Origin: a virus
IMG/VR virus record: IMGVR_UViG_3300034104_004745
Location: 126,001-190,000 of that record
DNA length: 64,000 nucleotides
Reading direction: 5' to 3' (one strand)
A model generated the notes under the pieces. The model was not told where the DNA came from. It made no database searches and worked only from the letters and a program-made list of their open reading frames with translations. Made by a program: the position numbers and the translations under genes. Positions 13,968 to 63,964 of this stretch are shown here, one piece after another; position 1 is the first letter of the stretch, and each line of letters opens with the position of its first letter.

Positions 13968-15197
13968 TTAATTTGGTTGTTCAAATTCAGTACATACAAT
14001 TTGGTTACCTGTACAAGGTCCTACTTGCGCAGTACATGGTGAAAATTCATTTTCTCTACAATAATATGTAACTGATTGGCAATTTGCTTGACAAGCTAGC
14101 AACGTTGTGTATAAACCACCTTCGCCCTCAACTATTTCACACGAACCATTATTACAGTTATATGTGTATATAACTTCCGATGTTGATGTTGATGTTGGTG
14201 TTATTGTTGGTGTTGCTGCCCCACATATACCATAATTTGGTGTTTGTGATGTATAACTATCAATTGATACTGTTTCAGCTACACAACTACCTTGACCACA
14301 ATCGACGACTGAATATGTTGTTATATCAACATAATTTGATAAGCTACCTGCTGTTATCGTTATATCATACGTTTGACCGCCACTTGTACCATAACAATAA
14401 TTAATTGTTCCATTTACTCTAACTGTAACATTAACGGATGAAATCGTAGCTAATGTTGCGGTAACTCTTGTTGTGGTAACATTATATGGGCCTTGACCTA
14501 AACAATTTATTTGTGTATAACTTTCAGATTCGGTCATTGTCACACAACCACTAGTTCCACCTTCTGTTGTGGTTGGTGTTGCCGTTACCGTAGGTGTAAT
14601 TGTCGGTGTCGATGTACCAGTTGGTGTTGAAGTTGTTGTTGGGGTACCAGTACTAGTTGGTGTTACCTCGTCAGTACTTGTTGGCGTCGCAGTACTTGTT
14701 GGTGTTGGTGTTACCCCATCAGTACTTGTTGGCGTCGCTGTACTAGTTGGTGTCGCTGTACTAGTTGATGTACCTGTTGGTGTAGGTGTTGGTGTAGATG
14801 TTATAACTTGATCACTAACAGCCGATCCACCACTAAATCTACAATCAACATAACTAGACGTACCACCAGTAAATAAGCAACAGTTTATGCAATTATCATA
14901 AATTTCTTCATGATTTGTGAAGATATTTTCTATCACATAACCTCCAGTAACTGTATCTAAAATTTTAAACCAATATTGTGTGCTATATTGTGCATTAGTA
15001 AAAACAATTGGTGTTGTATTGTAATATGAACCATCAGAACTTGCTTGATATGTCCCATTTGGTAATGTAGATCCCACAGAATATTGCGTATAACCTGTTG
15101 TAACAAAAGGTTCATTACCTGCTGTGGCCCCAATTTTAAAATACAATTTAAATGGGTTTGTAGAAACAATACCTTTTAATTTTAGATTTAATCCCAT
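13968..15197 (-). CDS. TPT-linked Cys-rich fibre/adhesin protein, 409 aa
   Basis: Residues 1-126 form an N-terminal beta domain with a Cys cluster (YDNCINCCLF). Residues 127-210 are TPTST repeats. Residues 211-325 form a domain with Cys-Gly pairs (CLGQGPYNVTTTRV, CYGTSGGQTYDITI). The end carries a short Cys motif, C-NNGSC-EIVEGEGG-LYTTLLACQANC split here, of the CxxGxC...YxTLxxCQxxC kind seen in marine viral proteins. The second half closes with CRENEFSPC and CTGNQIVC. Disulphides are possible only after release from the cytoplasm. Likely a virion surface protein; family unknown. Confidence 0.6.
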   Translation of the reverse strand: MGLNLKLKGIVSTNPFKLYFKIGATAGNEPFVTTGYTQYSVGSTLPNGTYQASSDGSYYNTTPIVFTNAQYSTQYWFKILDTVTGGYVIENIFTNHEEIYDNCINCCLFTGGTSSYVDCRFSGGSAVSDQVITSTPTPTPTGTSTSTATPTSTATPTSTDGVTPTPTSTATPTSTDEVTPTSTGTPTTTSTPTGTSTPTITPTVTATPTTTEGGTSGCVTMTESESYTQINCLGQGPYNVTTTRVTATLATISSVNVTVRVNGTINYCYGTSGGQTYDITITAGSLSNYVDITTYSVVDCGQGSCVAETVSIDSYTSQTPNYGICGAATPTITPTSTSTSEVIYTYNCNNGSCEIVEGEGGLYTTLLACQANCQSVTYYCRENEFSPCTAQVGPCTGNQIVCTEFEQPN

Positions 15198-15297: not shown

Positions 15298-15873
15298 TTA
15301 TGCTATTGCTCCACCTCCACTACAATTTGAGATATATTGGACATCAGTTACTTCTCCGAAATTGTTAACTTTGATAACTTGATATGGTGGATTATTGGTA
15401 TTATATGTGTCGTCAGAAGAAACAGCATAATATCCATCACCCCCTACCCAAGGGTCTTGGTTACCATCATATACTGTAGTGCCTAACATACCTGAAATTG
15501 TCGTTGAGGTACTATAGAATAATGCGCTCGTTATTTGGTTTTGACCACAATGACCGTCAGCTGTTATTGAGCCGTTACTACGGAAAAATCCATATAATGG
15601 TGGTGTTGTTGTACTGGAAGTAGGTGTTGGTGTCGGAGATGGGTATGCTTGCCATTGTTGTGTTGTTGTACAAACACCAGTACTAGCAATTGTACCACCT
15701 GTTGTCATATCGCTTACACCAGTTATTGTATGCCCAGTTAATAATTGGGTTTTTGTCACACCTGTTGCTAATTGTGTGGTAACATTACCACTAGTGGTTC
15801 CTGATATGTTAAAGGGACCCGCCACATATGTTGCGCCTGAGTATTGATTTTGTAATGTGAAAGTAACTACCAT
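15298..15873 (-). CDS. Short TPT-linked fibre protein, 191 aa
   Basis: Residues 1-75 form a beta-rich N-terminal domain (FTLQNQYSGATYVAGPFNIS). Residues 76-95 are a very short Pro/Thr linker (PSPTPTPTSS). Residues 96-191 make a C-terminal module (LYGFFRSNG...FYSTSTTISGMLGTTVYDGN...GEVTDVQYISNC) ending in CSGGGAIA. This end matches that of the 405 aa protein, so the two share an interchangeable tip. It has a TATTTATA box upstream and a terminator downstream, so it can be its own unit. Confidence 0.6.
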   Translation of the reverse strand: MVVTFTLQNQYSGATYVAGPFNISGTTSGNVTTQLATGVTKTQLLTGHTITGVSDMTTGGTIASTGVCTTTQQWQAYPSPTPTPTSSTTTPPLYGFFRSNGSITADGHCGQNQITSALFYSTSTTISGMLGTTVYDGNQDPWVGGDGYYAVSSDDTYNTNNPPYQVIKVNNFGEVTDVQYISNCSGGGAIA

Positions 15874-15919: not shown

Positions 15920-18900
15920 TTAAATTTGATTACCTGGACCACCACCGGTACAATTTGCACAATTAGAATAGATTGACGCATATTGTCCATCTGTTAAATG
16001 AAGAGGATATTGCTCACATGTCGTGCCAACAAAATAATCTATTTGATAACAAACGTTGTTAATCTTAACAGCGTTAAGTCCTGAAGTAAATTGTGACGGT
16101 AATAGATCAGGTGAACTCATTAAAACAGGCGTACCATTATCACATACCAACCCTTGATATGTGTAATAGACTGGCGCATCTGCTAACACTACAATTCCGC
16201 TATTAGTTACACAACCATTAGCATCTGTAACTTCAAGACAATAACCACCAGATGATAATCCCGTAACATCTCTACTAACATTACCAGATACAACATTTGT
16301 ATATGTGGCTATTAATGTACCACCACATGTAGTATATGGCGCTGATTCATCTTCATATAAACGATATGTTTTAGGCCATACCCCACCTGTTGATGAAATG
16401 GTTAAGCTACCACCAGTTGGGTTAGAACATGTTGGTCCTACTTCATTAGTAATTGACGCTGTTTGTGCTGTTGGTTCACTTACATATTCAGCATAAGTTT
16501 GAACACAACCAGCACTATCTTTAACATATATTGTATATGTTCCAGTTGTTAAACTACTAAATGTTTTAGGGAATGCATGATAATTTATACCATCTATTGA
16601 AACTGTATACACACCACTATTACCACCTAATGGTGAAGATGTTGCAATAGAACCATTTGACCCACCATTACATGAAACATTAGAAACGCTTCTTGTACAG
16701 TTTGGTGCTGTTTTACTCATATCAACAGTTATAATACTTGATTCACAACCCGCAGTATCTCTTGATTGGAAAGTATACGATGTAGCCCCTAAGCTGCTGA
16801 ATGTTGCGCTGTTAACCCAAGTACCAGAGTTAATTCTATATTGATACGAACCGTTACCGCCACCAGCAGTTAATGTAACTGAACCATTACTTCCATTATA
16901 ACATGTGGTATATGCTATAGATGTTGTACCTACCGTTACCGCAGATGGTTGTGTCACACTTACTGAATATGTGTTTTCACAACCCGCAGTATCTTTAACA
17001 TAAATTGTATATGCTCCTGCAGATAATGAAGAATATGTTCTAGATGTTGATAATACTTGATATGTACCACCAGCATTTAATTTAGTTGAATATGGTCCAC
17101 CTTGACCACCAGATAAACTAGACACTACGATTGAACCATCACTACCACCATTACATGTTACACTATTTTGTGATACTGTTGCTGTTACTTGTGTTCTGTC
17201 TAAACCAGTTGTACTTGTTATAATACAACCAGCACTATCTTTAATGTAAATTGTATAAACACCATTACTTAAATTACTAAATGTTGTTCCAGCTTGATAG
17301 TTTGTTCCATCTTTTGAATATGTATAAGATCCACTACCACCAGTAGCATTTGATACCGTTATTGAACCATCTGTGCTAGCAACGCAAGTTGGATTAGTTC
17401 TTAATAATGAAGCACCAATATTCGCTGGTTGAGTTACGGTTACAGATGCGCTACCTACTTCATTGTATGAATCTTTAGCATAAATTGTATATGTTCCGGC
17501 TGTTAAACTACCAAATACATTGCTTGCTTGGTAATTTGTGCCATCTTTTGAATATGTGTAATTTGCTGTACCGCCACTAGCATCTGATACTGTAATCGCA
17601 CCATTTGTTCCACCATTACATGTAACGTTAGTTGTTGCGGATGCTGTTACCGAAATTGTTACGTTTGTAATTGTTATTGTTAATGTTTTGTCATATGTTA
17701 ATCCACCAGCATCTGTTGTTCTTACTCTAATTGAGTATGACGATTTGCTTTCGAAATTGAAAACAACAGCAGATCTTAATGATGAACCAGATATACTAAA
17801 GCTAGCATTATCTGGATATGATCCACCATCAACTAATGAATATGTGAATGTGTCACCAGAATCAGGATCAGTACTAGATAATGTACCAATTGTTGTTCCT
17901 GTTGGAACGTTTTCAGATATTGATGATGAGCTTAATGCTAGATTTGTTGGTGCTTCATTAACATTTGTTACAGATACAGTTAATACCCCATCAAATGTTA
18001 ATCCACCAGCATCTGTTGTTCTTACTTTTATTGAGTAAGAAGATTTTGATTCAAAATTAAATACTGCTGCAGATTTTAATACACCACCACTTGTTATTGT
18101 GAAGCTATTATTATCTGGATAATTTGCGGTATCTACTAATGAATATGTGAATGTATCACCAGAATCAACATCTAATGTTGTTACAGTTCCAACAGTTGTT
18201 CCTGTTGCTGAATTTTCTGGTATTGAACCACTAAAGTTTAATCCATAAGGTGTTTCATTAACGTTATTTACATTAATTGTAAATGTTTTGTCATAGAATA
18301 AACCACCATTGTCAGTTGATCTAATTGTAACAGTATAAGAAGTTGCAGATTCATAATTGAATGATTGTGACGTTCTTAAGTTAGCCCCAGAAATATTAAA
18401 TAAGTTACCATTACCTCCAGCTTGAATTGTATATGTGTGTGTGTTTCCTGCATCAGGATCAACACTACTTAATGTACCCACAATTGTATTAATTGCGCTA
18501 TTTTCATTTACGCTATTATTACTTAGTGTAATGTCAGTTGGCGCCGAATTTGTTGGTGTGCTTGTTGATGTCGATGTTGGTGTAAAAGTAGGTGTCGCTG
18601 TAGACGTACTTGTTGGTGTCGTTGTTGGTGTTGGTGTAGCAATTACCGCCACAGTATTAATTACAAATTCACAATTAGGTGTGTAAGTTGAAGTAGGTGT
18701 CGACGTTGTTGTTGGCGTCGCAGTAGGAGTGCCAGTCGATGTTGGTGTACTAGTTGGTGTTTCTGTATTAGTTGGTGTATTGGTTGGTGTTTCTGTTGGT
18801 GTATTAGTCGGCGTATTGGTAGGTGTACCAGTCGGTGTTTCTGTACTAGTTGGTGTTTCTGTTGATGTATTTGTACTTGTAGGTGTACCAGTCGATGTTG

Positions 18901-19531
18901 GTGTCGGTGTTGCAATTATAGCCACAGCAGTGATCACAAATTCACAATTTGGTGTATAAGTTGAAGTCGGTGTTTCTGTGCTAGTTGGTGTTGACGTAGG
19001 GGTATTAGTAGGTGTACCAGTACTAGTCGGTGTTGTAGTTGGTGTTTCTGTTGGTGTATTGGTTGGCGTTTCTGTTGATGTACTAGTTGGTGTTTCTGTT
19101 GGTGTACTAGTTATTGTACTTGTAGGGGTTGGTGTTGCAATTACAGCAATTGTTTCAATTACAAATTCGCAATTTGGTGTATATGTCGATGTTGGCGTTT
19201 CTGTACTAGTTGGTGTATCAGTAGATGTACTAGTAGGTGTCCCAGTCGATGTTGGTGTACTAGTAGGTGTTGTGGTTGGTGTTATAATAGGTATTGAGTA
19301 ATTTATGTCAATAGCACATAAATCATTTCTTAAAATTAATAGATTGGCTAAATCTGGTGTGGATACTAAAACTCCCGGCGCTACACTTAATTCACTAAAA
19401 GTTAAATTTGTTGCTGGATTTCCATTATTAATATTTGTTGCGATTTTTAAAGGATCAACACTGTCATAATAAACTGTATACGGTCCTGGTGATGTACCTC
19501 CTGTAATCTCTATGTAAAAATATCTAGCCAT
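15920..19531 (-). CDS. Giant phage adhesin: TPT linker, cadherin and SprB repeats
   Basis: 1203 aa. Residues 1-80 form an N-terminal domain. Residues 80-329 are TPTST linkers interrupted by three copies of NCEFVI-xx-[V/I]A[V/I]IATPTP. Residues 330-630 are three cadherin-type repeats with NEN, DPD[A/S]G and RTTDAGG calcium-site patterns. Residues 632-1130 are about six SprB-type repeats (CNGGSDGSI...[11 protein letters not shown]...VTQP). The end is a Cys-rich tail finishing CTGGGPG. SprB repeats are known from the Flavobacterium surface gliding adhesin; cadherin repeats mediate Ca-dependent adhesion. No signal peptide, so it is probably a virion fibre rather than a secreted protein. It was probably acquired from a host adhesin. 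Confidence 0.75.
18545..19290 (-). repeat. TPTST-coding repeat tract in the 1203 aa adhesin
   Basis: Degenerate tandem repeats that on the plus strand read as variants of GTTGGTGTTTCTGTACTAGT. They encode TPTSTETPT units and three C-E-FVI cassettes. The antisense strand is also open and Val/Gly-rich. Confidence 0.85.
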
Positions 19532-19544: not shown

Positions 19545-22500
19545 TTAAGGACAAATGTTTTGTATTGCTGTTATTATGTTTGCCCCACTAAATCCAGTTG
19601 TAACCAATCCGTTTGTTCCAGTTGCTAAAGTGTATAAAGCATTATTACTAGTAGTTGTCATTAATAATACTCTAATATTTTGATTATATAAAGGTGTTAT
19701 TAGACTGTTTACAAACGTAACGTCAGTTGAGTTATAAGCATCATCATTACCACTTGGTGTTGCATCAGTTATTAAAATTATTAATTTAGATACCCTAGTT
19801 CTAAATGTTCCAGCAAAATATTCATAACCTGAAATATTATTAGTTGCAACTAAATTGACCCCCATATCACTTGGTTCTGGTATACTTTCACCACTACCTA
19901 AAGGAACCGCACTATTTAATTTATTTAATTGAGTTGTAAATGAGGAAATATTATTTGTACCCATTTTCTCCCAAGCAGTTATCCATTGATATTTGCTATT
20001 AAGACCCGTATTAATAAATCTTTGTGATGATGGTAAAGTTGTATAATTACTATTGTTCCAATAGTTTGAGTTGATTCCGCTAGAATATTCATCAAATGTT
20101 ACTAAACCTAATCTATAATTGTTATTAGATTCTGTTTGTATTGTGTTTGCAATAGACGCAATAGATGATTTTACACCATTAATCGCACTACCCATACTAC
20201 CTGTATAATCAACTAAAAATACAACATCCATACCAGCGTCACACGATGCAGGTTCACCTGGAATTTCACCAATAGTTTCGGTAAATTTAGCCTCAAATGA
20301 ACAATCTGGGGTAATTGTTGAAGTTGGTGTTTCTGTGCTAGTTGGTGTTTCTGTGATGGTCGAAGTACTTGTTGGTGTTGGCGTAGCAATTACAGCTACG
20401 GTATCGATCACGAATTCACAATTAGGTGTTTCTGTACTAGTAGGTGTAATGGTACTAGTTGGTGTTTCCGTACTAGTTGAAGTTGGCGTTGAAGTAATTG
20501 TTGATGTCGGTGTAGGTGTCGCAATTACAGCCACTGTATCGATTACGAAATCACAATTTGGTGTATATGTTGATGTTGGTGTTTCTGTACTAGTTGGTGT
20601 TTCTGTGCTAGTTGGTGTACCAGTAATTGTAGATGTTGATGTCGGTGTAGGTGTTGCTATTACCGCAACAGTGTCAATCACAAATTCACAATTTGGTGTA
20701 TATGTTGATGTTGGTGTTTCTGTACTAGTTGGTGTTTCTGTGCTAGTTGGTGTTTCTGTAATTGTTGAAGTGCTTGTTGGTGTTGGTGTAGCAATTACAG
20801 CCACAGTATCAATAACGAAATCACAATTAAGTGTTTCTGTTGAAGTTGGTGTCGATGTTATTGTCGATGTTGGTGTCGGTGTTGCTATTACGGCTACCAC
20901 ATCAATAACGAAATCACAATTAAGTGTTTCTGTTGAAGTTGGTGTTGTTGTAATAGTAGGTGTTGGTGTAGGTGTCGCAATTACTGCTACTACATCAATA
21001 ACAAAATCGCAACTAGGCGTTTCTGTTGATGTTGGTGTTATTGTTACACTAGGTGTTGGCGTAGCAATTACAGCTACGGTATCAATCACGAAATCACAAT
21101 TAGATGTAATTGTAGATGTTGGTGTTGATGTGCTTGTTGGTGTTGGTGTTGCAATTACTGCCACCGTATCAATTACAAAATCACAACTAGTTGTTTGTGT
21201 TGGTGTTGCTGTACTAGTACTAGTTGGTGTCGGCGTTTCAGTCAACGTCGAAGTGCTACTTGGTGTTGGTGTACTAGTAGGCGTTCCCGTTGGTGTCGAT
21301 GTAATTGTTGGTGTTCCCGTGCTAGTTGGTGTGTTTGTAGGTGTGTTAGTTGGTGATGGTGTTACCACTGGATAATAATCTCCACACACAACTGCAGGGG
21401 TAATTGAACCACACTCAGTTGTATAATTTCTAATAGGATCTTCAATCGCAGTATCACAACACACATCATCAATATAATATTGACTTAAATTAGTGTTAAG
21501 TCTATTAAATTTAGTATATGTATGTTGAGCCAATACTTGAACATTATCGTTACCGTTAAATAAAATTAAATTCTCTGGTTGTGTGCCAGTAACATTAATA
21601 TTATAATAAAGATTGTTCTCACAGTAATTTAAATTAACAGCAACAACTTCTAATAATTCACCCTTTTCTGTAATTAAAAAATCACCAGTATCATAATAAT
21701 CTGATGGATAATAACAACATGGTTCTTCTTGTGTTTCCGGTTTTAATTGTAGAAACTCAGGAGATCTAGAATCAAAGAAATATCCATCTACTTTTGATAC
21801 CCTATATGTGGCCTCATCAATTTCTTTGTTTGTATAGACACGTAATTTTGTTGTAGGTAAAACATCGATAACTACTTGCTGACCATTTGCAGTCATACCA
21901 GTTATTTCACTCTTTTTTACCGAACCTAAACAATCAATATCGTTAATTGTATGTGTTGAATAGTCATATGAAAAAGAATAATCGTTATTTTCACTAGCAT
22001 ATTCAAACATGCTTGATGAAAGTACGGTACATGGTAGATAACTTGCACTTAATATAACATTCCCATTAACCAAATCTTTGGCATCTTTTCTAACAAGAGT
22101 TCCAGCTGCTAAATAGCTAGTAATATTTGCCGGTGTTGTAGATGAATTAATTGTAGCACCACTCACAACAATTACTTTAGTATTGTGTTTTAAACCGTAA
22201 TTGTATGTGTTTCTATATTGTACTTTTGGTACTAATGTATAACCAGTATTAACTACCAAAGGTAAATCCGGAATTTCGGATGGATACTCTATATATCTTA
22301 ATGCCAATCCTTCAATTTTTACTTTTTTATCACAGTTTGCTGCGTCAGTAAAAATTAAATCAATAACCTCATCTTCTCTTACTTTAGTTAATTTAAACTT
22401 ACAATTTTCTCCAACAATTTGGAAGAAACTTGTGTCTGTATATGTTGGGTGATAACCTGTACTAATATTATTACCTGGTGTGCAATTTCTTTGAACATAA

Positions 22501-25500
22501 ACACCCCATCCGCTATCGTTACCAGATTGAACTGTTACACCAGTTACACTGACAATAATATCAGTAGATACTTTGCAAGTTGGGTAACCAGAATAAACAT
22601 CACAAGAAGCATCAAATGATAAATCTAAATGACATTTAGGTTCAGTATATTTGTAATCAACATCAAAATAGAAATCTAAATTATCTTTTACCAAACATTC
22701 ACCAGATGAGTTTGTGTGGGCGATAAACTTAACTTTTTCAATACCATCACTATCTGTGAAAAATTCATGTGATATTAATTGTGTATAACCACTAGTAATT
22801 GCTGTAGTTGGAACATAACTTGGTGCATTAAATGCACTATATTGTACTTCTGTTTGATTAATTTGGTTAACCAATGAAGTTATTGCACTTTTCCAAGCAG
22901 CTTTAATTGTTGTTAAATTTAAATTGATCCAATTTTTATATTCACATATAAGTGGAATCTTTGTTGATGAAGATGTTAGTATAGTACAACTTTCATTTGC
23001 AGTGAAGCCACCACCAAATAAAGTACTACCAGTTAAAATAACTTGCGTTGTTCCACTATAATCAACACCATCAATATCAATATGTAAACTAAATGTTACA
23101 CCGCTAAATTCTATTAATCCTCTTAAATTATCTGGATCACCAACTATTGTCTCAATATCTTCTTCAATAATTGTTTCAAACTCAGGGTATAGGTTTTCAA
23201 CTATTTCTAATGGTTTACATGGTTTTCTATATGAAAACTTAGGTCTACCAAAAATATTATTTTCTATTAAATTTCCACCCATCCATAAGGTTGTTGATGG
23301 AATAATTTGTTCTAAAACATTAGACCAATATGGGCTCATCTGATTAACGAAATCAGATGTTGAAATCATATCATATGTTGTATATCCAGAAGCTGTTAAT
23401 TGATTTAAATAATCTTGATATACATCTTCTAATGTGATATAATTTTTCTTATATTTTATTAAGTTTGAATTAGTAATTTGATTAGAAAAAGTATTTTGTA
23501 GGTATTCAGCAAATGTAAAACCAGTTTGTGGTTCAAGACTATTTGTACCAAAAGTAACTTCTAATTCTCTGGATTTTCTCCAAATATCATAGTTGATTGC
23601 ATTGGCAGCAGAAACAAATACGTTTATATTTTTTCTATTAAGAGTTAAATTAGATAAATTTTCATCTTCTAATATTTGCCCTTGTACGTTATCAATTTCA
23701 CTTTTAATTGTGAAACCATAATCTAATCCAGGTAATGTTCTATAAACATCAAAATAATCCTCACCATATGAATATGGTTTAGATTTTGTTAATAATGTTT
23801 TTGTTCTACCCGTTAAAACTGAACTTTCAGTATCTAACATATCAGACGATCTATGATCTAATGATACATTTGACCAACCAGAACCCATTTGGAAAAATAT
23901 ATTTTCCTGATTAGTTGTTGGCGATTTTGGTAATAATGAAATGTCATTTACAGGGTAATCAGTTAACTGTCTATTTGTTGTTAAACCAGTTAATGATGAT
24001 AATGTGTATGTATATGTGCCACTATTAAATGTCACATTATTATTTACTTCAATATTGTTTAATGTGTTTGTGATATCATCTAAAGTTGATGGTGGCAATG
24101 CACTATTAACTTTATACACAAACTCATCAATTTTAACCATTGGTTCAGGAGCACCTATGAACTTTAAGAAAAATTCAATACTACTTCTGGTTCCCTTTGA
24201 TTTATAAATGAAAGCTAAATTAACTAAAAGTCGTCTATAGAATTCTAATTCAGCATCAACTAAATTCTTACCAATAGATTGTCCATCATAGGTAACTGAA
24301 GATGCATTATAAATTTGTTCTTCTAAAGATTTTTGATCGAATAAATTGATTGTATTTAAACCAAGAGTGTTTGCTAGATTTTTAAGAAAAACATCTGGGA
24401 TGTTATCTATTGCATCATAACTTACATTTCTCATATATGCAATATTGTCAATATATGATTTTACTTTATCAAAGCTTTGTCCATATAATTGAAATATTTT
24501 ATCTATTTTTTGATCTTCGGTGTCAAATTCAAATAACTGAGGAGCAACTAAAAATCTTGTTACTAAGTTAGATTTATAATTGTCAATCTCTGTCGCTAAA
24601 TCATTTAATCTAGTAAGATATTCATCAAACTTTAATCCTGTGATCTGTATGTTGTACCCGTCAGATGATGCTGGCCAATTTACTAATACCGAAACTAACT
24701 CTGTTTTTGTTTCATCTAGACTTGTTTTTGGTACAGTAAATCCTGCTTGATATATTGGGAATGTCTCTCTGTTTAATAATGTTTGCTCAAGATCATCTAA
24801 ACCTAGATAAAACTCTTCAACAACATTATCATTAGGTCTTAAAATAAAACTATCTGAATATGTTGAACCAGTAAACGGTTTTCCGGTAACTGATAATGTA
24901 ATTTGATTGAAACTATTTGGTTCAGTATAATTGCTTACAGAATATTTCTTATCATCAACAATTATAATGTATTTTTTATATGAGGAAAATAAATTTCTGA
25001 TTTTATTTTCAGCATTTAATTCCTCATTTGAGGTAGGTTGTATTAAAGCAACGTCAAACGGATTAAAAAATCTACCCGTTTGAACTGTAAATGTTGTTCT
25101 ATTTGTTGTTGGGTTGTAAGTAATACTTTCTGCAGTATTAGATGTAACCACCGAAAGTGCGTCTTTATCAACTAAAATTCCACCTGGGAAGTTTTTGATA
25201 ATTCTAGCAATCGAAACCCTAATTCTTTCTCTTAAAGAACCAAATAAAGATTTTGATGCGTCTTTTTTATTACTATTAAATCTTACTGGTCTTTTCTTAC
25301 CGTCAGACTGTACAACTGTTGTTGGTACATCTTCTTCTATCTTAAGGTTTTCAAGAGTTATAAAATCTGAAAATGGCGCAGTTTGGAATTTTTTAGAGTC
25401 TTTTTCTGGTATGGTCCTATCTATCGCAAAGTTCGTATTAGTCAATTGACTAGTACCGTCAGTAATTTGTCTTCCAACAATACTGTCGCTAAACGTTTCA

Positions 25501-25541
25501 AAACCACTAGCTGCTTGACTCGGAACTTTTCTTTTTGCCAT
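19545..25541 (-). CDS. Baseplate-type protein with TPT repeats and C-terminal vWA domain
   Basis: 1998 aa. Residues 1 to about 1385 look like a baseplate or tail structural protein, with an N-terminal Q/S/T-rich start and helical regions such as EQIYNASSVTYDGQSIGKN. Residues 1390-1745 are TPTST linkers with eight copies of C[D/E]FVID[T/V]VAVIATPTP. Residues 1764-1998 form a von Willebrand A domain with the MIDAS motif DYTGSMG, the downstream LVTFDEYSSG and ILITDATPSG, and the helices expected around them. vWA domains bind ligands through a divalent metal. It shares a TAATG stop-start overlap with the upstream 305 aa gene, hence coupled translation. Confidence 0.75.
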   Translation of the reverse strand: MAKRKVPSQAASGFETFSDSIVGRQITDGTSQLTNTNFAIDRTIPEKDSKKFQTAPFSDFITLENLKIEEDVPTTVVQSDGKKRPVRFNSNKKDASKSLFGSLRERIRVSIARIIKNFPGGILVDKDALSVVTSNTAESITYNPTTNRTTFTVQTGRFFNPFDVALIQPTSNEELNAENKIRNLFSSYKKYIIIVDDKKYSVSNYTEPNSFNQITLSVTGKPFTGSTYSDSFILRPNDNVVEEFYLGLDDLEQTLLNRETFPIYQAGFTVPKTSLDETKTELVSVLVNWPASSDGYNIQITGLKFDEYLTRLNDLATEIDNYKSNLVTRFLVAPQLFEFDTEDQKIDKIFQLYGQSFDKVKSYIDNIAYMRNVSYDAIDNIPDVFLKNLANTLGLNTINLFDQKSLEEQIYNASSVTYDGQSIGKNLVDAELEFYRRLLVNLAFIYKSKGTRSSIEFFLKFIGAPEPMVKIDEFVYKVNSALPPSTLDDITNTLNNIEVNNNVTFNSGTYTYTLSSLTGLTTNRQLTDYPVNDISLLPKSPTTNQENIFFQMGSGWSNVSLDHRSSDMLDTESSVLTGRTKTLLTKSKPYSYGEDYFDVYRTLPGLDYGFTIKSEIDNVQGQILEDENLSNLTLNRKNINVFVSAANAINYDIWRKSRELEVTFGTNSLEPQTGFTFAEYLQNTFSNQITNSNLIKYKKNYITLEDVYQDYLNQLTASGYTTYDMISTSDFVNQMSPYWSNVLEQIIPSTTLWMGGNLIENNIFGRPKFSYRKPCKPLEIVENLYPEFETIIEEDIETIVGDPDNLRGLIEFSGVTFSLHIDIDGVDYSGTTQVILTGSTLFGGGFTANESCTILTSSSTKIPLICEYKNWINLNLTTIKAAWKSAITSLVNQINQTEVQYSAFNAPSYVPTTAITSGYTQLISHEFFTDSDGIEKVKFIAHTNSSGECLVKDNLDFYFDVDYKYTEPKCHLDLSFDASCDVYSGYPTCKVSTDIIVSVTGVTVQSGNDSGWGVYVQRNCTPGNNISTGYHPTYTDTSFFQIVGENCKFKLTKVREDEVIDLIFTDAANCDKKVKIEGLALRYIEYPSEIPDLPLVVNTGYTLVPKVQYRNTYNYGLKHNTKVIVVSGATINSSTTPANITSYLAAGTLVRKDAKDLVNGNVILSASYLPCTVLSSSMFEYASENNDYSFSYDYSTHTINDIDCLGSVKKSEITGMTANGQQVVIDVLPTTKLRVYTNKEIDEATYRVSKVDGYFFDSRSPEFLQLKPETQEEPCCYYPSDYYDTGDFLITEKGELLEVVAVNLNYCENNLYYNINVTGTQPENLILFNGNDNVQVLAQHTYTKFNRLNTNLSQYYIDDVCCDTAIEDPIRNYTTECGSITPAVVCGDYYPVVTPSPTNTPTNTPTSTGTPTITSTPTGTPTSTPTPSSTSTLTETPTPTSTSTATPTQTTSCDFVIDTVAVIATPTPTSTSTPTSTITSNCDFVIDTVAVIATPTPSVTITPTSTETPSCDFVIDVVAVIATPTPTPTITTTPTSTETLNCDFVIDVVAVIATPTPTSTITSTPTSTETLNCDFVIDTVAVIATPTPTSTSTITETPTSTETPTSTETPTSTYTPNCEFVIDTVAVIATPTPTSTSTITGTPTSTETPTSTETPTSTYTPNCDFVIDTVAVIATPTPTSTITSTPTSTSTETPTSTITPTSTETPNCEFVIDTVAVIATPTPTSTSTITETPTSTETPTSTITPDCSFEAKFTETIGEIPGEPASCDAGMDVVFLVDYTGSMGSAINGVKSSIASIANTIQTESNNNYRLGLVTFDEYSSGINSNYWNNSNYTTLPSSQRFINTGLNSKYQWITAWEKMGTNNISSFTTQLNKLNSAVPLGSGESIPEPSDMGVNLVATNNISGYEYFAGTFRTRVSKLIILITDATPSGNDDAYNSTDVTFVNSLITPLYNQNIRVLLMTTTSNNALYTLATGTNGLVTTGFSGANIITAIQNICP
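20305..21375 (-). repeat. TPTST / C[DE]FVI cassette repeat array
   Basis: Eight successive units of roughly 29-46 codons. Each begins with Cys-[Asp/Glu]-Phe-Val-Ile and AVIATPTP and then has a variable TPTST spacer. A ninth, degenerate start (DCSFEAKF) borders the vWA domain. Nucleotide units diverge mainly at third positions. Confidence 0.9.
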
Positions 25542-26482: not shown

Positions 26483-27742
26483 TTATTGTTTTTTCACCAC
26501 AAAAAAACCGTTTCCGTAGATATCTAATTCACCAATATTATCAATTTCTCCCAATCTTAAATTAAATTCTGAAACCCCCATCTTACCTCTTTCAACAAAT
26601 ATGTCAGAATAAACTTGTGGTTCAGAAATAAAACCTAAAAAATGTTCATTTCTGGTTAACATTTTATTAGTCACATATTCCACCGCAAAATCAGTATTTG
26701 AGTTGTAAGATGTGAATCCGGTTGTTCCATTTATGATATGATTTGGCACTTTCCCTGTTATATAAGTAACACCATCAGAACAATCATAGTAATCTAAGCC
26801 ATCAACCGTATATTTTGAACAAGTTAAAGTTGTACCTGGTAATGACGTTGAAGTTACCCCACTGTATGTGTTACCCCCATATAATTTTTTCTCTATTATT
26901 CTACTTTTACCTGCCGCCACAAATGTGAGTGCTGTTGGTGTTTTTGTAGATCCTGATAATGCAACCCCGTAGTCAGTGTATGGAAATGTGAATGACAATG
27001 TTCCTAAACTAGTAGGATTACCGATCGCTAATGGTAAATTTACTGTTCTGGATAGTGTTTGTACCGTCCATGGGCTATTCATAGTAATTGAAATAGTTTT
27101 ATTTCCGGGTGTTGAATATGTTTTTGTTACATTACCTAATATACTAATTGAAGAAGTTGTACTATCCCCCCAATTAATTTGAAAAGTAGCATCAACTACT
27201 CTTTTTAATGTATTTGTATTTGTTGTATTGTAAACTGTAATTGTGTTACCACTAGCTTTATAAGTAAAATTACAAAGTTGTTCTACTTGATCTACTTCCC
27301 CATCAAAGCCAACCATTATACCTAATTCATCGGCTTTTGCGTCTAATGTTATTGGTATTTCATAATCTGGGTGTGCCGCTGATTTATTTTTACCAATGTT
27401 TACCCATAAATTTCCATTCCATCTATAATAATATCCTTTATCTACCCAAGTAACAGCTTCAGGTTGTTCAACCCAAAACGTAGTTTGTGATGATGGGATT
27501 TTATTTAAATTAGAATCAGTCAGTGACTTATAAATTTTTCCATTGTAATAAATTGTATCACCAGCCTCATATGTAATATCACTATACCACTTAACATCCA
27601 TTATTGTGGTTCCACTAACAGGTGCTGTTGTTGCTGACCAAGGAATTAATTCTAAATTACGATCATACCAATACTGACCAGCGTTGTATAAAACAACTGA
27701 TAAGATATTTTTTTGTAATATTTCGTACTTATATTTTTTCAT
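26483..27742 (-). CDS. Virion structural protein with carbohydrate-binding-like segment, 419 aa
   Basis: Residues 45-105 read like a short chitin/carbohydrate-binding module of the ChiC/CBM5-12 sort: tryptophan-rich YEAGDTIYYNGKIYKSL, then PSSQTTFWVEQPEAVTWV. Residues 150-270 form a beta sandwich (FQINWGDSTTSSISILGNVTKTYSTPGNKTISIT), PKD-like with the GD...Y..PG..TI pattern. The C-terminus (RGKMGVSEFNLRLGEIDNIGELDIYGNGFF) resembles conserved baseplate protein ends. A sugar-binding tail component is plausible. Function is inferred from these motifs only. Confidence 0.6.
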   Translation of the reverse strand: MKKYKYEILQKNILSVVLYNAGQYWYDRNLELIPWSATTAPVSGTTIMDVKWYSDITYEAGDTIYYNGKIYKSLTDSNLNKIPSSQTTFWVEQPEAVTWVDKGYYYRWNGNLWVNIGKNKSAAHPDYEIPITLDAKADELGIMVGFDGEVDQVEQLCNFTYKASGNTITVYNTTNTNTLKRVVDATFQINWGDSTTSSISILGNVTKTYSTPGNKTISITMNSPWTVQTLSRTVNLPLAIGNPTSLGTLSFTFPYTDYGVALSGSTKTPTALTFVAAGKSRIIEKKLYGGNTYSGVTSTSLPGTTLTCSKYTVDGLDYYDCSDGVTYITGKVPNHIINGTTGFTSYNSNTDFAVEYVTNKMLTRNEHFLGFISEPQVYSDIFVERGKMGVSEFNLRLGEIDNIGELDIYGNGFFVVKKQ

Positions 27743-34224: not shown

Positions 34225-36057
34225 TTAATATGTAGTCGTGCCTAATGTTTTTACCCTTATTTTTATATCTTTCTGAGGGAACCTGATTTGAAATATTTGG
34301 TTAGCCTTCATAAACACTGTCATATCGCTTTGTAGAATCTCTTTTGTGGCTGTATCTTTATATGATTGTGACACTTGTGAAGATGAATATTCACCACCGA
34401 TCTTGTTATAAGCTCTAACTTCTATCACGTTAACAACACCAGGAACGTTATTTACATCTTTCATTAACTCACCAACAAATAATGGATCACCCATTTTTCT
34501 TTTATCAATTGAAAAATACTCTGTTGTTGCTGTAATTACATCTCTAATAACTTCTCCTTGATTTTGATTTTTATCTAAAAGCAAGTCAATCTCCAATCCT
34601 AAATCGATAACCTCACCACTAACAATATCAATATAGTCGTTAATCATTCTATATTGTGAAAGATAATTCAAAATGTTTTGTTTTAATGTGTTAGATACTA
34701 CACTTGTTAAATTACCGCTTTGGTCATATGAAAGTAATTTAACTCTTACTTTATTGTCTTCCTCCATTACGTTTACTTTAGCCGGCGCACCATATGTAGC
34801 TGGCATTGTTTCAATCATCGATTTGTAATCATTTAATGTTACAGCTCTGTTTTGTGCAGCAAAATTGTACGATACCATCGCTCTAAGTTCTTCTACTGTT
34901 GGTTGATCTGAACCACCAACTGCAGGTGTAATGTTTGTCACATTTAAAGATTGTGAAACTTGACTATTTGTATTTGAATTTGGGCCTGTTATAATAAAAT
35001 CAGAGTTTTCTACGTTACTAATAACACCAACCCCTACATTACTTTCTTTACCGCCGCCAATTCTATATTTTATAAACAACGTACTATCTTGTTTTGGTAT
35101 TGAACCTAATGATAGATTGTTCAAATATGAAGATAAATTTACTTTTAACTTATCTGTAATGTAATTATCCAAATTATCTAATGGGTCTACATTACCAGAA
35201 CCAAAAGTCAAAAAGAAATATCCTTCTGGTGTATATTCAGTGATAAATTTATTTTGTACTGGCACATATTCACCAGCTTTAAAATTAGCCCTATCAGAAA
35301 CTGAAGTTGTACTTGACACAAATACTTTATCTTGTACTAATGATTGAACTTCATACCATTTATTTGGATCGCCAATAAATTCACTGTATGCTGGATTACC
35401 AACAAATGATGTACCTTCTTTGTGAATTACTGCTGAAACACCTAAAACGTTTCTTTCTGGTAAAAATATCTTTAAGAATGGTCTTTGTTCTTGTTGTGTA
35501 ATAACCTTTCTAAATATTTTTGTTACCCCATTAACAACCGCTTCTCTTTTTACTATTGTATATGAAATTAAGTTGTTATTGTTATCAGTATTAGGTAATT
35601 TAAGTCTATTAGGCTCACCTTTACTATTAAATGGGTTTGAAAAATCAATATCTTCTATTGTTTCAAAAATCTGACCTCCACCCGAAACTTGAGCACCTGC
35701 TCTTAAAATACCTTCGTATCTATCATCATCTTTATCCCCCTTAACCGGAACATTAATACTAAAATCACATAAAGCAACTGAAGGTCTTTGACCTGGAATT
35801 CTTATACCATATGTTTTTGCAATATGAAATAAAGATTGTCTTTTTTGAGCAAAATCTAACATGGTTTCTTGCCAAACCCTATCAATATGAAAATGAAGGT
35901 TATCTGAAACCGCCGCATTTAAATCTAATAATACAGAATAAATTGACGCATCATTTGTATTCTGTATAATATCTGGATAATATTCTTTGGTTAAATTTAC
36001 TAGGTCTTGTCTTAACCCAGCAAAATCTCTATTAGTATATGCTATCTTTTTGCTCAT
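34225..36057 (-). CDS. 6: Baseplate wedge protein, gp6/J-like
   Basis: 610 aa. The N-terminus MSKKIAYTNRDFAGLRQDLV, with LTKEYYPDIIQNTNDASIYSVLLDLNAAVSDNLHFHIDR following, is the typical opening of T4 gp6 / baseplate_J-type wedge proteins. These form the ring of the baseplate around the hub. Later parts include LNDYKSMIETMPATYGAPAKVNVM and EVIDLGLEIDLLL, also typical of that family's C-terminal half. T4 gp6 is about 660 aa, so the length fits. It directly follows the gp25-like gene (1-base gap), the order seen in many contractile tails. Confidence 0.88.
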   Translation of the reverse strand: MSKKIAYTNRDFAGLRQDLVNLTKEYYPDIIQNTNDASIYSVLLDLNAAVSDNLHFHIDRVWQETMLDFAQKRQSLFHIAKTYGIRIPGQRPSVALCDFSINVPVKGDKDDDRYEGILRAGAQVSGGGQIFETIEDIDFSNPFNSKGEPNRLKLPNTDNNNNLISYTIVKREAVVNGVTKIFRKVITQQEQRPFLKIFLPERNVLGVSAVIHKEGTSFVGNPAYSEFIGDPNKWYEVQSLVQDKVFVSSTTSVSDRANFKAGEYVPVQNKFITEYTPEGYFFLTFGSGNVDPLDNLDNYITDKLKVNLSSYLNNLSLGSIPKQDSTLFIKYRIGGGKESNVGVGVISNVENSDFIITGPNSNTNSQVSQSLNVTNITPAVGGSDQPTVEELRAMVSYNFAAQNRAVTLNDYKSMIETMPATYGAPAKVNVMEEDNKVRVKLLSYDQSGNLTSVVSNTLKQNILNYLSQYRMINDYIDIVSGEVIDLGLEIDLLLDKNQNQGEVIRDVITATTEYFSIDKRKMGDPLFVGELMKDVNNVPGVVNVIEVRAYNKIGGEYSSSQVSQSYKDTATKEILQSDMTVFMKANQIFQIRFPQKDIKIRVKTLGTTTY

Positions 36058-36058: not shown

Positions 36059-36514
36059 TTATATGTTAATAATTACAAAGTCAGAACTAGAAAAAGTTCC
36101 ATTATTTGTTGTGTAATCAATTCTTATTTTTGCTGTGTATGGCTTTGTTGACCCATCACCAGTTCTAAATAATCTGATGTCCTCATCCTCACTAATACTT
36201 GACGCTCCGTCTTCCGGATCAATATCGGGATTCGTTATTTTTATTGAGTTTATTTCTAAATTAGGTATGTATATTTTTACTGTTTCTCTGATCTCATCTT
36301 CAATACTAGAATATGTAATTGAATCATTTAAATCAAAAATAAATTCGTATAGTCTAGTTCCAAAATCTGGTAAAAAATATCTACTACCCTTTCTTGTCAA
36401 TAATAAATGAATAAGATTAGCTCTAATCTCTTCATCCTTATCAAGGGTCATTCTAGTATAATCACCTAGGGTGCTATTTCTAAAAGGAAAATCTATGCCA
36501 TATTTAGTAACCAT
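36059..36514 (-). CDS. 25: Baseplate wedge protein gp25 (GPW_gp25 family)
   Basis: 151 aa from ATG 36514 (MVTKYGIDFPFRNSTLG). An upstream ATG at 36565 would add a hydrophobic leader lying in the terminator and is rejected. The family core is clear: DKDEEIRANLIHLLLTRKGS, YFLPDFGTRLYEFIFDLND, IEDEIRETVKIYIPNLEI. gp25-like proteins form the conserved sheath-initiating rim of the wedge in T4, P2 and contractile injection systems. It is the first gene after the nrdA terminator, with TATTTAT boxes in the leader, so it starts the virion operon. Confidence 0.9.
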   Translation of the reverse strand: MVTKYGIDFPFRNSTLGDYTRMTLDKDEEIRANLIHLLLTRKGSRYFLPDFGTRLYEFIFDLNDSITYSSIEDEIRETVKIYIPNLEINSIKITNPDIDPEDGASSISEDEDIRLFRTGDGSTKPYTAKIRIDYTTNNGTFSSSDFVIINI

Positions 36515-36544
36515 AACAATAAATATAAACAATACTAAAATGGA

Positions 36545-36552
36545 TATAAATA
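36545..36552 (-). promoter_or_regulatory. TATTTATA box upstream of gp25
   Basis: Exact minus-strand TATTTATA, 30 bases before ATG 36514, just after the T run of the terminator. A second near match (TATTTATT) lies three bases before the ATG. Confidence 0.4.
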
Positions 36553-36558
36553 AAAAAA

Positions 36559-36581
36559 GCGACACTTTTTAAAAGTGCCGC
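36559..36581 (-). terminator. Intrinsic terminator after nrdA
   Basis: Stem GCGGCAC.TTTT / AAAA.GTGTCGC with one mismatch, followed by seven T on the minus strand. It closes the SSB-to-nrdA unit. Confidence 0.8.
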
Positions 36582-39118: not shown

Positions 39119-39133
39119 CTCTTATTAAAAATT

Positions 39134-40111
39134 TTAAAATTCTAAATCACCAAATGCTGATTCAAGATCTTCAGATTCTGAAGTTTTATTGACACCCGCT
39201 TTTTGATATTCTGCAACTCTTTTTTCAAAGAAGTTTGTCTTTCCTTGTAATGCAATATTTTGCATGAAATCAAATGGATTTTCTACATTATAAACTTTAG
39301 GAACACCTAATGCAACTAATAATCTATCTGTAACAAATTCTAAATATTGCGACATTAAATCTGAATTCATACCAATTAAACGAACTGGTAATGCTTCAAG
39401 AATAAATTCTTTCTCAATTTCTAAAGCACCACAAACAATATCTTTAATTTCTTGTTGTGACAATTTATTTTGAATATGGTGATTAAACAAATGACATGCA
39501 AAATCACAGTGCATACCTTCATCACGAGAAATCAATTCATTAGAAAATGTAAGCCCAGGCATTAGTCCTCTTTTCTTTAACCAGAAAATCGAACAGAAAG
39601 AACCAGAGAAGAAAATACCCTCAACAGCAGCAAACGCAATCAAACGCTCTACAAAAGTGCCTTTATCAATATATCTCAAAGCCCATTCAGCTTTTCTTTT
39701 AATTGCTGGTATGGTATCGATAGCATTAAATAATTTATTCTGTTCTTCTTTATCTTTAATGTATGAGTCAATCAATAATGAATATGTTTCACTATGAATG
39801 TTTTCCATCATAATCTGAAAACCGTAAAACATTTTTGCCTCAGTATATTGTACAGCATTAACAAAATTCATTGCAATGTTTTCATTAACAATACCGTCAG
39901 ATGCTGCGAAAAAAGCTAACACATGTTTAACAAAATGTTGCTCATCTGCATTTAATTTGTTTTCCCAATCATAGATATCTTGACCTAAATCAATTTCTTC
40001 AGCAGTCCAAAAACATGCTTCTTGTTGTTTATAGAGTTTCCATAAGTCATGGTGCTCGATTGGGAAAAGGACGAAACGTCCGGGATTGTCGACTAAAATC
40101 TTCTCGGTCAT
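39134..40111 (-). CDS. nrdB: Ribonucleotide reductase small subunit (diiron/tyrosyl radical)
   Basis: 325 aa. Diiron ligands by motif are Asp41 (EEIDLGQD), Glu103 and His106 with radical Tyr110 in ENIHSETY, Glu164 (AAVEGIF), and Glu198 and His201 in RDEGMHCDF. The C-terminal tail [11 protein letters not shown] is the acidic, aromatic peptide that docks into NrdA. The motif wording again fits the eukaryotic-type class Ia branch. It lies 15 bases upstream of nrdA and ten bases after the helicase gene, so dNTP synthesis is co-transcribed with the replisome. Confidence 0.96.
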
Positions 40112-40121
40112 GTTATTTGTT

Positions 40122-41513: not shown

Positions 41514-41541
41514 AATATAAAATTATTATATATAAAATAAA

Positions 41542-41985
41542 TTAAAGTTGGTACTGAAGATATGTCGTTTCTGGATTACCATATGACAAAACTTCAGTTA
41601 AATCTGCCAAAATTCTTCTCAATTTTGGTCGAATATCTACAGCATATCTAACTTTTGGATGGTAGTAATGTGCTGCGAATATTCTTTGAATAAATACATC
41701 GTCTCCTTGCTTAATTTCTAGCAAAAAGTATTGTTCTTCTGCTTCTTTTGGATCTTCCACAAAGTCATTATTCATAAAAAATCCTTGATTTTCGATAAGG
41801 TATTCGGAACTTTTTATTTTCAAATCTTCCGATATTTCTTCACAAATATTTTTTACTTCATAATGCAATTCCATAGATTTTCTGGTTGTAGGATTGTAAT
41901 CCCTAACGTTAAAGAATCTTTGGCAGATGATATTGCCATCTAGTGTAAGTAAAAATTCAAACTTGTTTTGTTCTTGAATGTTCAT
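41542..41985 (-). CDS. Unknown protein with two copies of one domain, 147 aa
   Basis: Two halves align by eye: FLLTLDGNIICQRFFNVRDY (9-30) with a following NPTTR, against FLLEIKQGDDVFIQRIFAAHY (about 85-108) with a following HPKVR. Each is followed by about 25 residues of helix (VKNICEEISEDL against PKLRRILADLTE). This is an internal duplication of a roughly 60-residue alpha/beta unit. No catalytic motif. It lies in the replication operon between the flap nuclease and helicase, so a replication-associated accessory role is inferred. Family not recognised. Confidence 0.65.
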   Translation of the reverse strand: MNIQEQNKFEFLLTLDGNIICQRFFNVRDYNPTTRKSMELHYEVKNICEEISEDLKIKSSEYLIENQGFFMNNDFVEDPKEAEEQYFLLEIKQGDDVFIQRIFAAHYYHPKVRYAVDIRPKLRRILADLTEVLSYGNPETTYLQYQL

Positions 41986-41997
41986 AAGTCTTAGTTT

Positions 41998-43017: not shown

Positions 43018-43044
43018 GTAGTCTATTCTTTAATAGTTAAACAA

Positions 43045-44076: not shown

Positions 44077-44097
44077 ATTAATAATTTTTTAAAAAAG

Positions 44098-44124
44098 TGG
44101 GCTTTTGACGTTATCTCCAGCCCA
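44098..44124 (-). terminator. Hairpin between SSB and uvsX (terminator or attenuator)
   Basis: Stem TGGGCT / AGCCCA with a 15-base loop, then CTTTTTT on the minus strand. Short stem and long loop suggest partial termination, which would give more SSB than UvsX transcript. Confidence 0.5.
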
Positions 44125-44129
44125 TTGGA

Positions 44130-61120: not shown

Positions 61121-63964
61121 TTAGATATTCTCAAAAGAAGCTCCTGTTGGTGTAATAACAAACTCAACATCAATAAATTCCAATGCTCTTGTAGGTTTGA
61201 TGTAAATCTTACCTCTCAATGTGTTAGCATCAATATCCTCTGGATCATTTGATACAGTTACACGGAAATCATATAAACCTCTTTCTTTCTTGATTGACTC
61301 AAGGATTGGATTAACCAATCTTAAGAATTCTTGTCTAACTTGATCATCATTTTGTTCAAACAATAATCTTACAGCTACTGCAGAAATTAACTTTCTTGCT
61401 CTTAATAACAATCTTCTTACGTTGATTCTATCAAGTGCTGATTCTCTAACTTGTAATGTTTTGTTACCCCAGATAATTGTACCTGTATCAGAGAATGTTG
61501 CAATTGGGTTAATTCTTGCTTTGTAAAGTTCATCTCTTTCATCAAGAGTTAACTTTTTAGTTGCTTTGATTGAGTTTACAAGACCTCTTGAATAACCAGC
61601 GACAGCGAACCAAGGATAAGAAACGTTATCAGTTAAAGCAATGTTCTTCAATACCTCACCTGTTGGTGGAATATAAAGTTGTGTAGCGTTATCTGTGTCT
61701 CTTACTTGAATCCAAGGCCAGTAAGTTGCTGAGTAGTTAGAATCAAATCCTAAATCATCTAATGCTCCGATAACCTCATCAGCACCAGTTGTACCGCTGA
61801 AATTAGGTGAGTTTACGATGTATAATGAATCTGCTCTGTCATTCTCAATAATATCTACAGCTTGGTTTACAAGTGAACTATGGTCATTCCAGTTAATACC
61901 TGGTGTTGCAAATATGTTAATATCAACAGCTTCAGGATTTTTGAATGTTTCAATACCTTGTAAGAAAGCATAGTAATCTGAGTTCCCTACCGCATTATTA
62001 AACACCCCACCATTAGTTGAGTGACCTGCAGCGTATGTGGTTTTACCAAAAATAAAACCATCGCCATTCGATTTAACATTTCTGTATATATCCCAACCAT
62101 CAAAACCACCAAATACTGGCATTGTGAATTTACGGAATCCGATTGCGTCTAATTTACCTTTATCTGTACCTTCTAAATCATAAGCGGTTGTTTTGTATAG
62201 ATATTCACCACTAGTACCAGTGATACTTGCAGCATTTGTAGATAAGTGGAAACCAAAAGTTGCGTCTGGCGCATTAGTACCTTTGAACTTAAACATATCT
62301 CTATCATAAACAAAGTGTTCATCTGTCGATAAACCTAAAGTTACTTTTTTAACTTTATCACCATTTGTTGTTACAGGTGTACCATTTGCTTCATAGTATA
62401 ATAAATCACCGGCATCGTAGTATTTTGTTTTGAAACGTATACCACCAACATCAGATTTTGTTGTTATACCTTTGAAACCTGCAGGTATTGCATCTGTTGG
62501 TGCATCATCTGCTAATACCAACATAATATATCTTGATCTTAATTCATATTCACTATCTGAAGTACCAATTTTTCTAGCAACATAACCAGGTAAATCTGGG
62601 TTCATAGTACATCTAGAATATTTTTCTAATACAACTTGATTAGCGTCAGTATCATTAAAATCACGAACTAATACATCAAATTCACCAGTATCTAAGTCAA
62701 TATTTTGAATGGTTACTTTTACTTCATAATTTGAAGCATCACCATCAGAAATTGTCAAGAAGCTGAATAAGTCAAATACTTTTCCACCTCTTACTTCAGA
62801 TACTACAGTTGATGAACCAGCCATATCCCACTGTGTCATAAAGTTATCACCTTCTGTAGTATTAACAACTGTTGTACTTAAACCTCTAATTAAACCTTGT
62901 TCAAAAAGATTTACAACTAAGTTAGGGTAAGCCTCATGAACATATAATGGATATTCAACTCTATCTTTATCAAAAACATCAGCACCTAATACTTTTGTTA
63001 AGTATTTTGTAGATGTTTGATCCATTGAACAATTGAATGTTGCTACATCTGAGTTAATATCTGTAACACTAATTGTGAAATCCGCCAATGGATTGCTAGC
63101 AAGACCAGTACCAGTTACAGTTACTGTATTTCCTGTAACTCTATGTACTAACACATTTTGAACATAATTACCTCTTGATCTCAATAAACAAACTTGTTTA
63201 TCATGATAATCGGTGTTTAATGATGCGTTATATTTAAATCTTGTTACAGTAAATTCTGATGTTCCAGTTGAATACACAAAAAGATAAGAGTAAACCCCAT
63301 CTATTGTAGCATCAGTCGATCCTGTTTTTGTAAAGAAGGTATTATACCAATCTTTATTATTGTTTGCTCCGATAGGTGATAATAATTCAGTACCAGTAAG
63401 TGAACTTGTTGCAGAATCTGGAACTTCACCAATTGTGAACCATTCGTTGTGTGCATAAGCACCACCTGAATTAGTTGCTGCAACTAGATAATCTGTTATA
63501 GAAGAACCTTCTGTTGAAGTTTTTCCTGATAATTCTGCATAAATTGTGCTACCTGTAATGCCACCTGAAGTCGGAACTAATGAAATACTTCCAGTAGATC
63601 CACTTAATGAACCTAGGGTCACGCCACCTAGAGCTTTAATGCTCCAAGTTTTGCCTGGTTTATATCCAGTAAGTCCTAATACACGGGTAACAAATAATTG
63701 GTTTGACTCTTGTAAATACGATTTCGCAACATATGGAAGTTCGTATTTTGGATTTCCAGCACCATCCTTTGCAGGACTTGTACCACCAAAATACGTTCTA
63801 AATTCATCGAAATTAGAAATTAATATCGGTTCAAATGCTGGACCCTTTAATGTCTCACCAACCAGACCCAATGTTGTTACGCCTACACTTTGAGCTACGA
63901 ATGTTAAATCTTTCTCTGATGTATAGACACCTGGAGAAACGAATACTCTGTTTGAATTTGCCAT
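61121..63964 (-). CDS. 18: Tail sheath protein, gp18-like
   Basis: 947 aa. The N-terminus VFVSPGVYTSEKDLTFVAQS with GVTTLGLVGETLKGPAFEP and FDEFRTYFGG is the classical sheath opening. The C-terminus NVRRLLLRARKLISAVAVRL, with FEQNDDQVRQEF and DNLRGKIYIKP-like wording (NTLRGKIYIKPTRALEFIDV), forms the conserved interlocking core. It polymerises around the tube and contracts at infection. It is much longer than T4 gp18 (659 aa); the extra sequence lies in the middle (about 120-560) and is probably surface-exposed insertion domains. Its promoter is beyond the window edge. Confidence 0.96.
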   Translation of the reverse strand: MANSNRVFVSPGVYTSEKDLTFVAQSVGVTTLGLVGETLKGPAFEPILISNFDEFRTYFGGTSPAKDGAGNPKYELPYVAKSYLQESNQLFVTRVLGLTGYKPGKTWSIKALGGVTLGSLSGSTGSISLVPTSGGITGSTIYAELSGKTSTEGSSITDYLVAATNSGGAYAHNEWFTIGEVPDSATSSLTGTELLSPIGANNNKDWYNTFFTKTGSTDATIDGVYSYLFVYSTGTSEFTVTRFKYNASLNTDYHDKQVCLLRSRGNYVQNVLVHRVTGNTVTVTGTGLASNPLADFTISVTDINSDVATFNCSMDQTSTKYLTKVLGADVFDKDRVEYPLYVHEAYPNLVVNLFEQGLIRGLSTTVVNTTEGDNFMTQWDMAGSSTVVSEVRGGKVFDLFSFLTISDGDASNYEVKVTIQNIDLDTGEFDVLVRDFNDTDANQVVLEKYSRCTMNPDLPGYVARKIGTSDSEYELRSRYIMLVLADDAPTDAIPAGFKGITTKSDVGGIRFKTKYYDAGDLLYYEANGTPVTTNGDKVKKVTLGLSTDEHFVYDRDMFKFKGTNAPDATFGFHLSTNAASITGTSGEYLYKTTAYDLEGTDKGKLDAIGFRKFTMPVFGGFDGWDIYRNVKSNGDGFIFGKTTYAAGHSTNGGVFNNAVGNSDYYAFLQGIETFKNPEAVDINIFATPGINWNDHSSLVNQAVDIIENDRADSLYIVNSPNFSGTTGADEVIGALDDLGFDSNYSATYWPWIQVRDTDNATQLYIPPTGEVLKNIALTDNVSYPWFAVAGYSRGLVNSIKATKKLTLDERDELYKARINPIATFSDTGTIIWGNKTLQVRESALDRINVRRLLLRARKLISAVAVRLLFEQNDDQVRQEFLRLVNPILESIKKERGLYDFRVTVSNDPEDIDANTLRGKIYIKPTRALEFIDVEFVITPTGASFENI

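Follow-up and report, generated by a model that had tools for sequence, protein, structure and literature searches.

The C-terminal von Willebrand A (vWA) domain of a 1998-aa viral protein is best explained as a member of a set of attachment tips that can replace one another on a baseplate-associated scaffold, where it would serve metal-site adsorption by contractile-tailed, probably Bacteroidota-infecting phages, a reading to which we assign a probability of roughly 60%. The protein is encoded by an ORF open from ATG to stop (19545..25541, minus strand) in the 64,000-nucleotide stretch of DNA analyzed here, hereafter the window, which is contained in a 198,825-base virus record that may itself be incomplete. 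It is composed of a scaffold (residues 1-1391; 21369..25541), a Thr/Pro/Ser linker (residues 1392-1746; 20304..21368), a short pre-tip element (residues 1747-1766; 20244..20303) and the vWA tip (residues 1767-1998; 19548..20243), all on the minus strand. What is new is this particular vWA family, with its integrin beta-like site, its spread over phages, eCIS and lipoproteins, and its proposed linker-based exchange.

Fold and putative metal site of the vWA tip

The original prediction had placed a DxTGSMG motif and a vWA fold at the end of this protein, and Pfam, AlphaFold2, Foldseek and the family alignment all bear this out. On the tip domain alone, the Pfam VWA profile (PF00092) matched at E 1.4e-6 and 29.0 bits, above its 23.8-bit cut-off; within the whole 1998-aa protein the match (residues 1772-1819; E 1.3e-4, 22.6 bits) fell slightly below it. 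As the sequence match covers only the first 48 of the 174 profile positions, the remainder of the assignment comes from structure. Across the vWA family, the same profile matched 32 of 36 members at E <= 0.01. The AlphaFold2 model of the tip, built from a 36-row alignment, has a pLDDT of 91.5 and a pTM of 0.89 and displays an alternating order of strands and helices. Queried against the PDB with Foldseek, it returned 225 matches at E <= 0.001, the top 50 of which were all integrin beta, so that the structure prediction and integrin comparison proposed earlier came out in favor of the assignment. The best of these had an E-value of 1.7e-9, at a TM-score to the query of only ~0.52-0.61. The likeness to the integrin beta I-like domain extends to a Glu in the PE loop and an Asp in the TDA loop, whereas sequence identity is 12-19% and no partner alpha subunit is known.

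The putative metal site has the composition of metal-binding (MIDAS) VWA domains, namely a DxS/TxS loop 1 together with acidic residues in loops 2 and 3. Loop 1 (D1778-Y-T1780-G-S1782; 20196..20210, minus strand) belongs to DYTGSMG (residues 1778-1784), the sole DxTGSMG in all six reading frames of the window; a less strict pattern, D.[ST].S, occurs 40 times in the same frames, and the bare MIDAS pattern therefore carries little weight by itself. The D, T and S of loop 1 are present in 36/36 sequences, an invariance that is partly biased because DYTGSMG was among the search patterns used to collect the vWA relatives. Free of that bias are the counts for the candidate MIDAS Glu, E1889 in the PE loop (19875..19877, minus strand; 34 of 36 sequences), and the candidate loop 3 Asp, D1926 in ITDA (19764..19766, minus strand; all 36), both absent from all search patterns. 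We take E1889 and D1926 to be equivalent to integrin beta MIDAS positions, and the five predicted ligands D1778, T1780, S1782, E1889 and D1926 fit a MIDAS of the integrin beta type. Two cysteines on the same strand, C1767 (20241-20243; 36/36) and C1997 (19551..19553; 34/36, the remaining two being gaps), are also kept, and a C1767-C1997 disulfide that joins the two ends of the predicted fold, and so closes it, is likely.

Comparison of the window vWA with those of loci L002, L003, L064 and L061 yielded dN/dS values of ~0.17-0.20, which demonstrate purifying selection. Homology, structure and selection together rule out a chance motif as the source of the vWA signal, and the observation is confirmed as lying well past chance level.

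The scaffold, its linker and the putative exchange of tips

The vWA domain had originally been described as tethered at the baseplate. The C-terminal tether and the contractile-tailed virus both stand, and the baseplate part follows from gene context. Upstream of the 1998-aa ORF, in one minus-strand run, lie genes for a baseplate J/gp6-like wedge protein (34225..36057; PHROG baseplate wedge E 1.9e-19; PF04865) and a gp25-like wedge protein (36059..36565; PF04965 E 4.3e-11), and a tail sheath gene (61121..63964, minus strand; PHROG tail sheath E 1.2e-64) identifies the virus as one with a contractile tail. Searches with the scaffold gave nothing consistent against PHROGs, no family name against Pfam and a chance match only by sequence against the PDB, and its structure model is poor (pLDDT 47.9). 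TIGR02242, a P2 gpI-type tail protein profile, was matched by seven of 11 scaffold records, always in the scaffold frame and always below the cut-off (E 2e-4 to 0.2); the window's own record gave no match to this profile. We therefore infer the baseplate association of the scaffold from gene order and context, not from homology. The same strand run continues upstream of gp25 with genes for a ribonucleotide reductase and for DnaB-like helicase, RecA/UvsX-like and gp32-like proteins (36680-44978), and a baseplate-region protein at 26483-27742 has a weak, sub-cut-off match to the carbohydrate-binding module CBM_5_12 (E 0.0013).

The first ~1390 residues, which constitute the scaffold, are shared by 54 viral loci, and some of these come from contigs of 245-311 kb. 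Every viral locus in our dataset is of metagenomic origin, and many of them are fragments only. The scaffold group is uncultured, and some of its phages are of jumbo size. On the 34 scaffold ORFs that reach a stop, ~14 tip types could be counted by eye from the listed similarity matches, vWA being one of them, and at least six are also found on other genes of related phages. Scaffolds ending in vWA occur in the window, L002/L004 and L064, the latter two lineages having scaffolds only ~46-52% identical to that of the window, and a different tip is found in the majority of relatives that have this scaffold. Phage receptor-binding tips are expected to be distal and variable among close relatives, and this C-terminal position has both properties.

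The linker preceding the tip, predicted at about 355 residues of TPT, proved to be exactly 355 residues long, 62% of them Thr, Pro or Ser. It is not plain TPT, as it contains eight copies of the element C[DE]FVID[TV]VAVIA, and three close copies of these elements are found in the next gene, with repeat DNA ~60-80% alike between the two genes. The pre-tip element, CSFEAKFTETIGEIPGEPAS, resembles the linker elements at its beginning and precedes the vWA tips of L002 and L064 as well. Antisense to the linker lies a 346-aa ORF (20335-21375), which mirrors the repeat and is probably a mechanical artefact.

A candidate case of exchange through such linkers was recovered in L010 and L006, which share 97.1% identity in 4.8 kb of DNA covering scaffold and linker up to mid-linker; past this point, L010 runs into the tip that is located two genes downstream in L006. 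The arrangement is as would be left by a deletion between two TPT linkers, which would have transferred a tip from one gene to another. The L010 fusion comes from a single 6.7-kb metagenome contig, and TPT repeats are prone to misassembly; the vWA fusion of the window is safer, since three lineages carry it. The tip type shared by L010 (5963-6640) and L011 (15673-18036) contains a DDSGSMN motif, and it was rejected as a second vWA because it is vWA-like by motif only, with no match in Pfam. Diversification of the tip by a DGR was likewise rejected, as no match to a reverse transcriptase (PF00078) was found in the 198,825-base, possibly incomplete record.

The genes that follow the scaffold have N-terminal anchors that reappear in the same order from locus to locus. 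In the window, this fiber cassette (all minus strand) begins with a 1203-aa protein (15920..19531) that has an N-terminal anchor, a TPT linker with three linker elements, three cadherin and five SprB repeats, and a tip of its own. It is followed by a 191-aa gene (15298..15873), whose L061 homolog carries a vWA domain, and by a 409-aa gene with a TPT linker (13968..15197), the end of whose tip resembles the end of the L040 scaffold tip. Where the scaffold ends in a short acidic tip (e.g. CDMTYEIVESSQGIILESGASFIVDENN), an adaptor gene and a second fiber gene always follow, an arrangement found in four lineages (L006; L011 and its identical copies; L016/L032; L061). The vWA-tipped scaffolds of the window, L002/L004 and L064 are without an adaptor or second fiber gene and have a cadherin/SprB-type gene directly next. 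On the simplest reading, the short acidic tip would be a docking peptide for a separate fiber, and the vWA its built-in alternative.

Distribution of the vWA family among phages and bacteria

The view that a vWA domain is unusual on a phage tail did not hold within this group of viruses, given that relatives of this domain were recovered in 50 viral loci, with over ten types of carrier, and that a phage precedent had been published. In the passages of the 2007 report that concern Bacillus thuringiensis phage 0305phi8-36, a large phage, gp164 is a virion protein of the baseplate/fiber region with a vWA domain that is swapped among relatives (PMC2147016). The vWA of gp164 is described there as central and its host as a Firmicute, whereas the window vWA is terminal, and those passages describe no TPT linker (PMC2147016). 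Also known before is that eCIS tail fibers have VWA among their acquired binding-protein domains (PMC12923769).

The viral carriers include ~745-aa proteins with an Fn3-like part and, in L069, a collagen fiber with an endosialidase chaperone. In L061 the vWA lies in a separate neighboring gene, the homolog of the 191-aa cassette gene of the window. A separate gene in a related phage, acquired by chance, had been named in the original prediction as the counter-case, and the separate gene does exist. Because the fusion is present in three divergent scaffold lineages, we do not regard L061 as overturning it, and the separate gene and the other carriers together argue for a mobile tip module over a chance fusion. 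In the domain tree, the scaffold-borne vWAs fall apart: that of the window pairs with L003, which is on another scaffold (support 99/92), and that of L064 pairs with L061, on another gene (100/93). Searches with tblastn against 50,697 phage records recovered no relative of the window vWA or scaffold, and those against named phage records none of the marine Fn3-vWA protein of L078 or the divergent vWA of L103.

Beyond viruses, the domain ends a 1080-aa Ig/cadherin-type protein (L126:220-3459) in the eCIS operon, with sheath, tube, gp25 and J genes, of one bacterial genome from the Bacteroidota sample, where it adjoins the baseplate genes; this vWA matches the family profile at E 6.4e-93. The two systems are alike in having a homologous terminal vWA on a protein of a contractile-tailed particle or its tail-like counterpart. 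They differ in that the eCIS domain sits behind Ig/cadherin-like domains, whereas that of the window sits on a TPT linker and an unrelated scaffold in a virus record.

A second bacterial form is a lipoprotein-like vWA protein of Bacteroidota (~280-350 aa; lipoprotein character judged by eye from the N-terminal sequence), whose gene is the next one downstream from an OmpA-family gene in 7/7 loci (L110, L111, L112, L113, L114, L115 and L120). Phage and bacterial vWAs share ~39-44% identity, and the bacterial lipoprotein vWAs form their own group in the domain tree (100/99), so that no recent transfer is seen. Matches to the vWA were found in two of 149 genomes of one Bacteroidota family and in three of 395 genomes sampled from the phylum, two of the latter three encoding the 1080-aa eCIS-type protein. 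SprB is a gliding adhesin of Bacteroidota, and the cadherin/SprB repeats of the 1203-aa neighbor hint at a host from this phylum; together with the Bacteroidota relatives, they lead us to regard Bacteroidota as the probable host.

Proposed role of the tip and competing explanations

Under the adsorption mechanism, the scaffold would anchor at the baseplate and the 355-residue linker would keep the tip at a distance from it. The tip would bind a divalent cation through D1778, T1780, S1782, E1889 and D1926, and the bound cation would grip an acidic group of a host-surface ligand, this being the adsorption step; a candidate for that ligand would be the OmpA-family outer-membrane protein encoded beside the homologous Bacteroidota vWA lipoprotein. 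The DNA repeats of the linker, common to neighboring fiber genes, would allow recombination to exchange tips. For a role in surface contact, the eCIS copy is the best independent argument, since there, too, the domain is terminal in a protein whose gene adjoins the baseplate genes of a contractile particle. The system would exemplify a way for uncultured phages to alter adhesion: the scaffold stays constant, the repetitive linker provides a place for recombination, and the available tips are common to neighboring genes and even to injection particles. It also makes a hypothesis of metal-dependent adsorption testable with a domain of 232 residues, and the adjacent OmpA-family protein gives a named candidate partner in place of a blind receptor search.

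Rapid replacement of tips is typical of receptor binding, and this weighs against an alternative that we consider unlikely, in which the tip would stick the particle to its environment, such as a polysaccharide matrix, particles or cell clumps, and would not engage a specific infection receptor. A comparable role has been proposed for Ig-like domains on phage virions. The best argument for such wider stickiness is a 307-aa protein of the same vWA family whose gene immediately follows that of the major head protein in L065 (7770-8690); the module may thus also decorate phage heads, and its position beside head genes means that the role of the family need not be adsorption. Cadherin, SprB and collagen modules also accompany the vWA family, and phages ascribed to Bacteroidota hosts have modular Ig-like proteins that mediate binding to surfaces (PMC13370021). 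The window vWA, however, is encoded behind baseplate genes, and the eCIS copy belongs to a tail-like particle that needs contact with its target cell.

A broader synthesis, in which one integrin beta-I-like vWA family is a plug-in tip for phage baseplates, heads, eCIS and Bacteroidota lipoproteins, with the phage form recognizing an OmpA-family partner and TPT-linker recombination acting as an RT-free tip exchanger, is decidedly doubtful. The proposal that the tip mimics the host vWA lipoprotein and docks on its OmpA-family partner as the receptor is improbable: the phage-bacterial identity and the invariant gene adjacency given above speak for it, but the bacterial pair is rare in the sampled genomes, the lipoproteins keep to their own tree group, and the lipoprotein-OmpA interaction is itself deduced from that adjacency. 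A structural or assembly role was also weighed, given that vWA domains serve generally in protein-protein interaction. That the domain is a subunit clasp or a virion-assembly cochaperone, comparable to the MoxR-vWA chaperone pairs described in jumbo phages (PMC7824862), is very improbable, because it is covalently held at the distal end of an extended linker and is dispensable in that most same-scaffold relatives carry other tips, and because the 198,825-base record contains no further VWA match.

For the favored reading of the vWA as an exchangeable adsorption tip, two further proteins provide points of comparison. Mfa5 of Porphyromonas gingivalis likewise has a vWA in the tip protein of a Bacteroidota surface fiber (PMC7835359), and its match to the profile is weak (E 0.31); it differs in belonging to a cellular fimbria, in having an isopeptide bond and in having no close sequence relation to the window protein. 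The closest predicted viral structure is the VWFA protein A0A7S9SU38 of virus NIOZ-UU157, with a TM-score of 0.83 and 32% identity, although its carrier is a different one of 986 residues.
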